From the NCBI GenBank assembly GCA_027533425.1, contig JAPZUD010000006.1, forward strand, positions 186,001 through 250,000: a DNA stretch of 64,000 bases, read 5' to 3'. Positions 55,469 to 63,715 of the stretch are shown here, piece by piece; positions within the stretch are counted from its first letter, which is position 1, and every line of letters begins with the position of its first letter. The notes beneath the pieces are model-generated. The model saw only the letters and a list, made by a program, of their open reading frames with translations. It made no database searches and had not been told where the DNA came from. The stretch comes from Beijerinckiaceae bacterium. GTDB taxonomy: Bacteria; Pseudomonadota; Alphaproteobacteria; Rhizobiales; Beijerinckiaceae. The position numbers were made by a program, and so were the translations under genes.

Positions 55469-56761
55469 ATGGCCAATGTGGTCGTAGTCGGCGCCCAATG
55501 GGGCGACTAGGGCAAGGGCAAGATTGTCGACTGGCTGTCGGAGCAGGCCGATATCGTTGTCCGCTACCAGGGCGGCCACAATGCCGGCCATACGCTGGTC
55601 ATTGACGGGATCACCTACAAGCTCAGCCTGCTGCCCTCGGGCATCGTGCGCGGAGGCAAGCTGTCCGTCATCGGCAACGGCGTCGTGATCGACCCGTCCG
55701 CCCTCTGTGACGAGATCGACCGCCTCGCGAGCCAGGGCGTGAAGGTATCCCCGGAAGGATTGCGCATCGCCGACAATGCCACGTTGATCCTGCCGCTCCA
55801 CCGCGAACTCGACGCCTTCCGCGAGAGCGGCAATTCCGGGACCAAGATCGGCACCACGAAGCGAGGCATCGGCCCCGCCTACGAGGACAAGGTCGGCCGC
55901 CGCGCGATCCGCGTCCGCGACCTCGCGGAGCCGGAAGCGCTGCCACCCAAGATCGACCGCCTGCTCGCCCATCACAACGCGTTGCGGCGTGGCATGGGCC
56001 TCGATGAGGTCGATGGCGGCGCACTGCTCGCGCTGCTGACAGCCATCGCCCCGCGCATCCTGCCCTATATGGACCGTGTCTGGGAAACGCTCGACCAGGC
56101 CCGCCGCGACGGCAAGCGCATCCTGTTCGAAGGGGCCCAGGGTGCCCTGCTCGATGTCGATCACGGCACCTATCCCTATGTCACCTCCTCGAACACGGTG
56201 GCCGGCCAGGCCTCGACCGGGTCCGGCCTTGGCCCGGGTGCGATCGGCTATGTGCTCGGCATCGTGAAGGCCTACACCACCCGCGTCGGCGAAGGCCCCT
56301 TCCCCTCCGAGCTGTTCGACGAAACCGGCCGCCTGATCGGTGAGCGCGGCCGTGAATTCGGCACCGTCACCGGGCGCGCCCGCCGCTGCGGCTGGTTCGA
56401 TGCCGTGCTGGTCCGCCAGACGATCAAGACCTCCGGCATTGACGGCATCGCGCTGACCAAGCTCGACATTCTGGACGGCTTCTCCGAGATCAAGGTCTGC
56501 ACCGGCTATCGGCTCGATGGCGAGATCATCGACTATCTCCCGGCCAGCGAATCAGCCCAGAAGCGCCTCGAGCCGGTCTACGAAACGATCCCCGGCTGGG
56601 CGGATTCGACCGCCGGCGCCCGCTCCTGGGCACAATTGCCGGCCGAGGCGATCAAATATGTCCGCCGGATCGAGGAATTGATCGGTGCGCCGGTCGCCCT
56701 GCTCTCGACCAGCCCGGAACGGGATGACACGATCCTCGTCAAGAATCCCTTCGAGGCCTGA
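55469..56761 (+). pseudogene. purA: adenylosuccinate synthetase purA with in-frame TAG at codon 14
   Basis: PurA joins IMP and aspartate with GTP, the first committed step to AMP. The frame from ATG 55469 reads MANVVVVGAQWGD, then TAG (55508-55510), then [20 protein letters not shown] and on without further stops to TGA 56761. Total length read through is 430 residues, the normal size. The TAG replaces the Glu of the GDEGKG loop and needs only one base change from GAG. All later motifs are intact ([42 protein letters not shown]). Without the N-terminus no active enzyme is expected. The options are sequencing or assembly error, a real null mutation, or amber suppression; the next in-frame ATG is 55646. 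Confidence 0.85.
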
Positions 56762-56767
56762 TCCCGC

Positions 56768-58006
56768 ATGGTGGATTATCATTCGCTCCTCAACCGTGCG
56801 ATCGCGAGCCTGGGCAACCCCGATGCGGAGGCCCGGGCATCGATCTACGGTCGGGCGCGCGATGCGCTGCAGCGGCAATTGCGCAGCTTCGATCCACCGC
56901 TCGACGAGGAAGAGATCCGCGTCCAGCTCGATGCGCTGGAGGCCGTGATTGTCCGGGTTGAGGCCGAACAGGCCGCTCCGGCAATGGCCGACGCCCCCGA
57001 AACAACGGAACCGCCTGAAGCCCCGGCACCCGCCCCGGCGGACTTGCCGCCTCGGGAGCCCCCGGTCATGGACGAGCCGGCGGTCCTGCTGCCTTCCGAT
57101 CCGGTGATCGAGCCGATCCTTCGCCCGCGCATGCCCAACCGGGGCGAAGCGGCCGGTCTTCCCCGGAAGCGGCTTTCGGTCTTCGTGGGCATCGGCATTG
57201 TCGCCATGCTGGCCATGGGACTTCTGGCCCTGACGCGGAACAGCAGGCCGGTCGCGCCCGCCGGTCCGCCTGTTGTCACGGCCCCGGCGGAGTCCGGGTC
57301 AGACCCGGCCAAGACCGAGGGCCGGCTGTCCGGCGCGGAACCCGCTCCGGCTGAACCCGCCCCGACACGGCCCGCTGCCCCGGCCCAGAGCCAGGCCGCC
57401 AACCCGCCAGCAGCCAACCCGCCTGCAGCCAACCCGCCGGCTGCGAACCCGCCGGCTGCGAACGGCGCGGTCGTCACCACACCGACAACCGGCCGCGCCT
57501 TCATGGTGCTCGAACCGGCACCGGGTGCGCCGAACCAGTTCGAGGGCCGTGTCAACTGGTCCTACCTGCCGGATAGTACTCTGGGCGGTCAGAAGAGCCT
57601 GCGGGCGTTGATTGAATTCGCCGGATCAACCCTGTCGATCGACTTCTCGATCGCCCGGAATGCCGACGCGGCACTGAGCGCATCGCATACGGTGATGGTG
57701 ATCTTCGACAGCCGGAACGGCCTCGGCAATGTGCTGGAAATGAGCGCTGTCGAATGGCGCGAACGCGAGGATCAGGTCGGCGGCGTGCTTGCCGGCATCG
57801 TCGTACCGATCCAGACCAATGTCTTCATGATCGGGCTTGACAAGGCCGAGGCCACCGTCACCCGCAATCTTGACCTGCTGCGGACGCAGAAATGGATGGT
57901 CTTCGAGTTCCGGCTGGAAACGGGCCGTCGCGGCGCGGTTCTCGTCGAGAAATCGGCAGCAGGCGAGCGGGCGATCGCCGAGGCCCTGCGCGACTGGCGC
58001 CAGTAA
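56768..58006 (+). CDS. membrane protein of unknown function with Ala-Asn-Pro-Pro repeats
   Basis: A 412-residue protein. Residues 1-70 form a helical cytoplasmic domain (LLNRAIASLGNPDAEARASI, LDEEEIRVQLDALEAVI). A Pro/Ala/Glu linker follows, then one membrane helix (about 138-156, SVFVGIGIVAMLAMGLLAL). A second low-complexity linker contains four tandem 5-residue units Ala-Asn-Pro-Pro-Ala (57398-57457). A periplasmic domain of about 150 residues makes up the rest, with VMVIFDSRNGLGNVLEM and WMVFEFRLETGRRGA. It lies 6 bases after purA, so the two are probably one transcript. Homologues in this position occur in related genomes; no function is known. Confidence 0.75.
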   Translation: MVDYHSLLNRAIASLGNPDAEARASIYGRARDALQRQLRSFDPPLDEEEIRVQLDALEAVIVRVEAEQAAPAMADAPETTEPPEAPAPAPADLPPREPPVMDEPAVLLPSDPVIEPILRPRMPNRGEAAGLPRKRLSVFVGIGIVAMLAMGLLALTRNSRPVAPAGPPVVTAPAESGSDPAKTEGRLSGAEPAPAEPAPTRPAAPAQSQAANPPAANPPAANPPAANPPAANGAVVTTPTTGRAFMVLEPAPGAPNQFEGRVNWSYLPDSTLGGQKSLRALIEFAGSTLSIDFSIARNADAALSASHTVMVIFDSRNGLGNVLEMSAVEWREREDQVGGVLAGIVVPIQTNVFMIGLDKAEATVTRNLDLLRTQKWMVFEFRLETGRRGAVLVEKSAAGERAIAEALRDWRQ

Positions 58007-62155: not shown

Positions 62156-62688
62156 CACTGTCTTTCCCGCAAGACCGGAGGGCACAAGGCCCTGCCCGGA
62201 TTCCTTTCAGTCTGCCCCAACAGGGTGAATGTTCGGTAAATTTCGATGAAGCCCCGGGACGTTGCCCGGAGGTCGTTCAAATTTGATAGAAATGAATCCG
62301 GGCTTGCACCGGCAAAACCCTTGCGATCGGCGGGCCCGGAAACCGGCTTCCGTGAAGAGTGCAGCACCAGAACCAGAATAAGACTGGACCTAGCCGGCCT
62401 GCATTTCGTAAGTCTATCTTGATATTTGGAAATCATTTTGATGATAACATTCAGTATTTGAATTCTTTCATTCGAAATTAACCAACATATTGAGGCTCCA
62501 ATATTCAGTATTGGTTGAATTTTATCATTTTTAATTATATCGGACACCCAGATGATTACATGATGGAATCATTTTCTGAATTAACCCAGGCGAAAGAATC
62601 GGCGGCTAATGTCGGCTTCGGTTCAGACGCACTGGTTCGGAAAGAGCAGGCGATCAGAAACCTGGAGCAACAGAGTAAGGAGCCTACC
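62156..62688. promoter_or_regulatory. long AT-rich regulatory region upstream of flp1
   Basis: A 533-base gap between divergent pilus genes. The stretch about 62400-62560 is markedly AT-rich compared with all the rest of the window. It holds a perfect palindrome CCAATA-TTCAG-TATTGG (62498-62514) and the sequence ATTCAGTATT twice, at about 62449-62458 and 62503-62512, each followed by a TTGAATT (7-8 bp direct repeat). No coding region was seen. An open frame runs from 62515 into flp1 but without a ribosome-binding site. Confidence 0.55.
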
Positions 62689-62862
62689 ATGTCGATTTTC
62701 AACCGTTTCGTGAAAGACGAGTCCGGCGCCACCGCGATCGAGTACAGCCTCATCGCCGCCCTGATGGCCGCCGCGATCATCACCGCCCTCGGCACGTTCG
62801 GCGGCGATCTGAAGACCGCCTTCACCAACATCGGCAACACGCTGAAGAACAACACCAAGTAA
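62689..62862 (+). CDS. flp: Flp-family type IVb pilin (copy 1)
   Basis: A 57-residue pilin. A short leader is followed by the Flp cleavage region and motif DESGATAIEYSLIAALMAAA (Gly before Ala, Glu at +5, Tyr at +6) and a hydrophobic helix; the C-terminus is NIGNTLKNNTK. The start is ATG 62689 with AAGGAG at 6 bases. It is processed by the TadV/CpaA prepilin peptidase, which is not in the window. It is followed by a strong terminator, then by a decayed copy and a second intact copy. Confidence 0.93.
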   Translation: MSIFNRFVKDESGATAIEYSLIAALMAAAIITALGTFGGDLKTAFTNIGNTLKNNTK

Positions 62863-62889
62863 GTTCTTCCGGTGCCAACCGGTTCCGAA

Positions 62890-62915
62890 AGGCAGGGCTC
62901 GCGCCCTGCCTTTTT
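62890..62915 (+). terminator. terminator of flp copy 1
   Basis: Stem AGGCAGGGC / GCCCTGCCT (62890-62898 with 62903-62911), loop TCGC, then TTTTT. Confidence 0.93.
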
Positions 62916-63110
62916 CGTTTCAGCCGAACATCAATTCGAAGAAAATCACTGATCGCCGATCCTTTAACGAAGCGAAAACGCTGCCGGCAGGCCAGTCGTA
63001 GACTTTTGACCGCTTGCCGATCGAACCAGGGAATTGGCCGGAACGCTGCCCGATGGGTGACCCCGACTCGGGGCCCGGGGGGCTTCTCATCAGGAAACCG
63101 GGTTTCCATC

Positions 63111-63295
63111 ATGTGGATCGCCCATCGTCTTCTTCGCGATCGTTCCGGTGCCACGGCCATTGAAGAGAGAGCCTGATCGCGGCCCTCATGGTCGCCACGA
63201 TCATCACGGCTCTCGACACTTTCGGGGGTGACCGGAAGGCTGCCTTTGCCGATATCGGCAACACGCCGAAGCAGAACAGCAGCACCGTCAGGTAA
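63111..63295 (+). pseudogene. decayed flp pilin copy (frameshifted)
   Basis: Reading from ATG 63111 gives MWIAHRLLRDRSGATAIE, which aligns residue for residue with the first 18 residues of the intact pilin. Two extra bases then occur near 63167-63171 (GAAGAGAGAGCC against GAGTACAGCC). The frame that continues reads SLIAALMVATIITALDTFGG and ends GNTPKQNSSTVR at TAA 63295. The copy therefore cannot make a pilin. Its ribosome-binding site is also poor. The downstream terminator is a homologue of the one after copy 1. Confidence 0.85.
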
Positions 63296-63325
63296 GGCAT
63301 TCCGGCGCTCGCCGGTGAGGAAAGA

Positions 63326-63348
63326 CAGGGCTTGCGCCCTGCTTTTTT
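63326..63348 (+). terminator. terminator after the decayed flp copy
   Basis: Stem CAGGGC / GCCCTG (63326-63331 with 63336-63341), loop TTGC, then C and six T's. Its sequence matches the copy-1 terminator except for the outer bases, so pilin and terminator were duplicated together. Confidence 0.85.
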
Positions 63349-63541
63349 GTTGGCCCGGTCTTCAAACGTGATCTTCATCAAGCGGAAACCCTGATGGAAC
63401 AGTCCCGTCGCAATTCTGGCTTTCTCCGATCCTGTTAAGAATTTCAGACAAGTCGAATGTTATGAAAGATGCATCTTCCTTGGAGCGGAAGAAGCCTTCT
63501 GGAGAACAGAAGGATCGTCAAACAAGATCTGGAGCACAACA

Positions 63542-63715
63542 ATGTCAGTTTTCAAGCGTTTCGCCGCCGATGAATCCGGCGCCACGGCGATCGAATACAG
63601 CCTCATCGCCGCCCTTATGGCCGCAGCGATCATCACGGCTCTCGGCGCTTTCGGCGGCGATCTGAAGACCGCCTTCACCAATATCGGCAACACGCTGAAG
63701 ACCAAGACCAAGTAA
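63542..63715 (+). CDS. flp: Flp-family type IVb pilin (copy 2)
   Basis: A 57-residue pilin (too short for a 60-residue cut-off) starting at ATG 63542 with GGAG 7 bases upstream. It begins MSVFKRFAADESGATAIEYS and is nearly identical to copy 1 from residue 9 on (differences at about residues 6, 8-9, 44 and the last five). It has its own terminator. The upstream 246 bases are not similar to the copy 1 promoter region by eye, so the two pilins may be expressed differently. Confidence 0.93.
   Translation: MSVFKRFAADESGATAIEYSLIAALMAAAIITALGAFGGDLKTAFTNIGNTLKTKTK

Follow-up and report, generated by a model that had tools for sequence, protein, structure and literature searches.

The only adenylosuccinate synthetase gene (purA) found in this genome is interrupted at codon 14 by an in-frame TAG, which stands in place of the glutamate of the GDEGKG loop, and the rest of the frame is intact to its end. 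The balance tips slightly towards the TAG reflecting a miscall or a minority variant in the consensus of an assembly that looks metagenomic; a real and very recent null allele is ranked below it as a serious candidate with somewhat less than an even chance. A lone stop of this sort in purA is an ordinary finding of an already known kind.

The interrupted purA frame

The window, a stretch of 64,000 nucleotides, corresponds to C10:186001-250000 of assembly G000, which holds 3,746,729 bases in 12 contigs and is 99.74% complete by the tool's estimate. The purA frame lies on the forward strand, from the ATG at 55469-55471 to a TGA ending at 56761. It encodes MANVVVVGAQWGD up to the TAG at 55508-55510 (codon 14) and then stays open for 416 codons, beginning GKGKIVDWL..., so that this TAG is the sole interruption between the start and the terminal TGA. 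The sequence-only reading had placed an amber codon at the Glu of GDEGKG and 416 open codons beyond it; both were borne out when the frame was re-read and followed with PF00709 to the end of the profile. The features are as follows.

55469..56761, + strand: purA (adenylosuccinate synthetase), broken at codon 14; identified from the frame and as the sole PF00709 match in the genome
55508..55510, + strand: in-frame TAG replacing the Glu of GDEGKG; a Glu codon in 110 of 110 distinct relatives
55511..56758, + strand: intact remainder of purA, 416 codons; PF00709 positions 11-416, 557 bits
55646..56761, + strand: first in-frame ATG/GTG/TTG restart after the stop, a GTG at residue 60; product without the N-terminal loop

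In the whole-genome search the full gene matched PF00709 over profile positions 1-416 with 582.5 bits and one TAG inside, and the part following the TAG, taken alone, matched positions 11-416 of 416 with 557.2 bits. Set against the PF00709 family, for which structures have been solved (e.g. 1ade), everything after codon 14 fits the profile to its end and the 13 residues before the TAG are the same as in relatives; the difference is a stop where the family has the Glu of GDEGKG, which breaks the N-terminal loop. We take this residue, Glu14, to be the Glu of a catalytic loop. A literature search pairing Glu14 with adenylosuccinate synthetase returned no paper, and among the matches listed for P-loop and mutagenesis none concerned the loop of this enzyme.

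PurA condenses aspartate and IMP with GTP, and Asp13 of the E. coli enzyme is called essential, according to the accessible part of PMC12884076. The aspartate just before the TAG is the counterpart of E. coli Asp13 and carries the same number here. These residues bear on whether PurA could restart after the stop and work without its N-terminus. An in-frame GTG is available at 55646, but its product would be without residues 1-59, including the loop with the essential aspartate and the QGGHNAGHT stretch. Because the GDEGKG loop is missing, the restarted form is not expected to be active, and we regard a functional restart as scarcely credible.

Conservation of codon 14

The corresponding codon was read in 115 purA loci, five of which were second fetches of the same gene, leaving 110 distinct relatives; all 110 encode Glu, with GAG in 67 and GAA in 43. 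A comparison with the nearest relatives, which the sequence-only reading had proposed, gave GAG in each of the four closest (G002, G015, G013 and G012), whose PurA proteins are 98.1, 97.8, 97.6 and 95.7% identical to that of G000, respectively. Apparent stops in five relatives, seen with a fixed-length window, were discarded as normal gene ends at residue 429.

A purA match was obtained in 61 of 61 genomes (G000 and 60 relatives, 16 of them of the same genus), with an internal stop only in G000; the genus-wide search gave the same picture (a match in 17 of 17, an internal stop only in G000). In G011 and G018 purA is present as pieces on two contigs. Across the order a match was found in 391 of 397 genomes, and none of the matches listed, which do not include G000, has an internal stop. 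Among the matches listed, the best named relatives, both at about 80-81% identity, are a Methylobacterium and a Bosea. Five of the six genomes of the order without a purA match have 120 to 1250 contigs, and gaps may explain them; the other, G142, has about 20 contigs and 94% completeness.

Age of the stop

Codons altered in one genome only were counted among five close species. Private changes in the G000 gene comprise 20 synonymous changes, one missense change (V48I) and the stop; in each of the other four species the private synonymous changes number 13-25 and the missense ones 0-6. The Ka/Ks of G000 purA against the four closest is 0.028-0.064. Back-calculation gives about 2.85 nonsynonymous sites for each synonymous one, so that 20 synonymous changes would be accompanied by about 57 missense changes in a gene free of constraint. 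One was observed (upper limit 4.7), and for this reason purA can have been unconstrained for no more than some 8% of the branch, its latest part, which is a rough bound. The pattern of changes indicates strong constraint on purA until very recently, and a stop that is either very young or not real.

These counts bear directly on an older loss, in which purA would have become a pseudogene in this lineage some time ago. The stop does lie in the only copy found, but private changes are 20 synonymous to one missense, there is no second lesion, and the gene is 1293 bases long, as in the four closest species. The pattern of private changes and the intact length contradict an old pseudogene, to which we give almost no weight, and the earlier argument that the gene is too intact for old decay agrees with the counts.

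Copy number and the assembly

The PF00709 search of the whole genome gave one match, the interrupted gene itself, and neither this profile search nor a DNA search found a second purA in the 3.75-Mb assembly. The statement of the sequence-only reading that the window has no second purA therefore holds, and extends to the whole assembly as available. No 16S match was obtained in G000, which is weak evidence alone as the control was positive in only 9 of 14 genomes. Among the 42 tRNAs of G000, tRNA-Ile(GAT) and tRNA-Ala(TGC) are absent. These two tRNAs are usually located in the rRNA operon, and since neither they nor a 16S were found, the operon is probably missing from the assembly. On the same grounds the assembly looks metagenome-derived.

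Other broken genes

Two parts of the assembly were screened for further interrupted genes by comparison with syntenic regions of sister species: C10:60001-430000 (370 kb) against G002 and G015 (DNA identity 90.9 and 89.7%), and C11:280001-680000 (400 kb) against G013 and G015 (89.1 and 87.7%). Together these 770 kb make up about a fifth of the assembly, and some of the predicted genes counted are spurious ORFs. In the first sample, an initial screen flagged 11 of 266 predicted genes of G000 with G002 as donor and 11 of 254 with G015. The screens took the first possible start codon, so that stops upstream of the true start were counted, which explains most flags. A stricter screen of the first sample, with G002 as the only donor, flagged 3 of 280 genes, namely purA and two others in which the break was judged by eye to precede the evident start. 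In the second sample the strict screen flagged 1 of 305 genes when G013 was the donor and 5 of 302 when G015 was.

Ten candidates were read in alignment, and 37 raw stops were partly sifted. In h13-43, h15-37, h15-310, g2-118, g2-228 and g2-31 the Pfam domain begins after the break, and g2-31, a MAPEG gene, starts after its TAG. Candidates g2-216 and g2-252 have no Pfam match in frame and match on the opposite strand, h15-70 has no Pfam match and was set aside by eye, h15-308 was likewise set aside by eye, and h15-283 is the same gene as h13-43. With some flags dismissed by eye in this way, and with the first-screen flags g15-157 and g15-303 left out of the tally, purA is the only accepted break among 280 + 305 predicted genes. 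No other nonsense or frameshift change was accepted in 584 other predicted genes, some of them spurious, which puts the upper 95% limit at about 0.5%. The sampled 770 kb showed no excess of internal stops, and because purA is the only accepted break in the 370 and 400 kb, this is not a decaying genome.

The strict screen was also applied to the sisters, where it flagged 12 of 282 genes in G002 and 6 of 290 in G015; sorting by eye only, one frame change was accepted in G002 and none in G015. In G002 a frame change near residue 181 splits a conserved gene of 547 residues (L192 near 12741, equivalent to G002:C17 near 352741) that is unsplit in both G000 and G015. The part of the G000 assembly sampled, a fifth, is clean, but single breaks, real or not, do occur in assemblies of this genus.

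Decoding of UAG

The perfectly preserved frame past the stop would be expected if UAG were decoded as a residue, with a suppressor tRNA or a reassigned code allowing full-length PurA to be made. An Rfam search of G000 gave 42 tRNA matches, with anticodons assigned by ARAGORN on those loci; no CUA anticodon is among them, and the sole tRNA-Glu found has the anticodon TTC. A tRNA in the rRNA operon, which appears to be unassembled, would escape this search. Release factor 1 (prfA) scores over the cut-off (TIGR00019, 484.3 bits) and has no internal stop. The share of predicted genes that end in TAG is similar to that in sister species: 24 of 310 in the first sample, where each of two sisters has 29 of 336, and 36 of 329 in the second, where the sister counts are 36 of 334 and 32 of 326. 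TAG is not favoured among the 37 raw in-frame stops of the loosest screen (7 TAG, 4 TAA and 26 TGA), and within the sampled 770 kb no other conserved gene with an in-frame TAG was accepted, that of purA being the only one judged to fall inside a real gene. A changed code or recoding in G000 has no support, and we hold such decoding to be very improbable. A leakier variant, in which a genuine UAG in the active-site loop of this key enzyme is decoded often enough to be useful, whether by near-cognate decoding or with a suppressor tRNA from the unassembled part, and the readthrough throttles AMP synthesis, is more improbable still. With no CUA tRNA among the 42 and RF1 free of internal stops, the earlier placing of suppression or recoding as the least likely of three causes is well founded.

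Base error or fresh null allele

The two readings that carry nearly all the weight are a wrong base and a recent mutation. In the former, a wrong or minority base would have entered the consensus at codon 14 of the sole purA; the TAG would then not be true of the organism, and the main population would have a working gene. According to Cooley and Wright 2024 (PMC11017572), many of the pseudogenes with internal stops in public bacterial genomes stem from errors of assembly. The spurious pseudogenes described there resemble the present case in resting on a single base in a conserved intact gene with intact relatives, and differ in that the sampled part here is without an excess of internal stops. 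This missing sign in an otherwise clean assembly counts against a base error, and the clean sequence speaks for a fresh null allele. The small target also counts against a base error: of 3870 possible single-base changes of the G002 purA, just 105 make a stop, so that in a given genome a single error is unlikely to land as a purA stop.

If the TAG is real, the organism would have lost the de novo step from IMP to AMP very recently and would live on external adenine, via Apt, or on adenosine, supplied by neighbours or the medium. Matches to apt and purB both score over the cut-off and have no internal stop, which in principle would let adenine from outside stand in for the PurA step. A partial precedent comes from laboratory E. 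coli, in which PMC13131326 describes a real but unstable premature stop that arose under selection in purB, whose product acts next in the AMP branch. That stop affects the same branch of purine synthesis. No literature on evolved purA nonsense mutants was found. Against a fresh null, no PF00860 purine permease was found in G000 in a search of this family alone, whose control was positive in 11 of 14, and life as an adenine auxotroph would be harder without it; there is no sign of relaxed selection, any neutral period being confined to about the last 8% of the branch; and an internal purA stop occurs in none of the 60 other genomes of the 61-genome search. The permease not being found and the 60 genomes without an internal purA stop also favour a base error.

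Taken together, the codon kept in relatives, the lack of any sign of relaxed selection, the metagenomic look of the assembly, the failure to find a PF00860 permease and the commonness of spurious stops in public genomes (PMC11017572) lead us to lean, with modest confidence, to an erroneous or minority base. We place it above the fresh null allele, which is plausible but the less probable of the two. The causes proposed from the letters alone (a base error, a fresh null mutation or, least likely, suppression) are supported as a set, and error and fresh mutation are separable only by reads.

Should the base be wrong, automated annotation would list the species as incapable of AMP synthesis, and metabolic models would falsely predict adenine dependence; a true TAG would add a recent instance of purine dependence. 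In both cases the matter is one for reads and not for a new mechanism.

Neighbouring genes

Six bases past the purA stop, at 56768-58006 on the + strand, begins a gene for a 412-residue protein with a stretch of NPPAA repeats, for which no Pfam match was obtained at E 0.001. Further downstream on the + strand lies a gene at 62515-62862, presumably Flp-pilin-like, and two more stretches on that strand, at 63170-63280 and 63488-63712, match the copy of this gene in the sister species. The region 62515-63712 apparently holds three pilin-like copies in a row.
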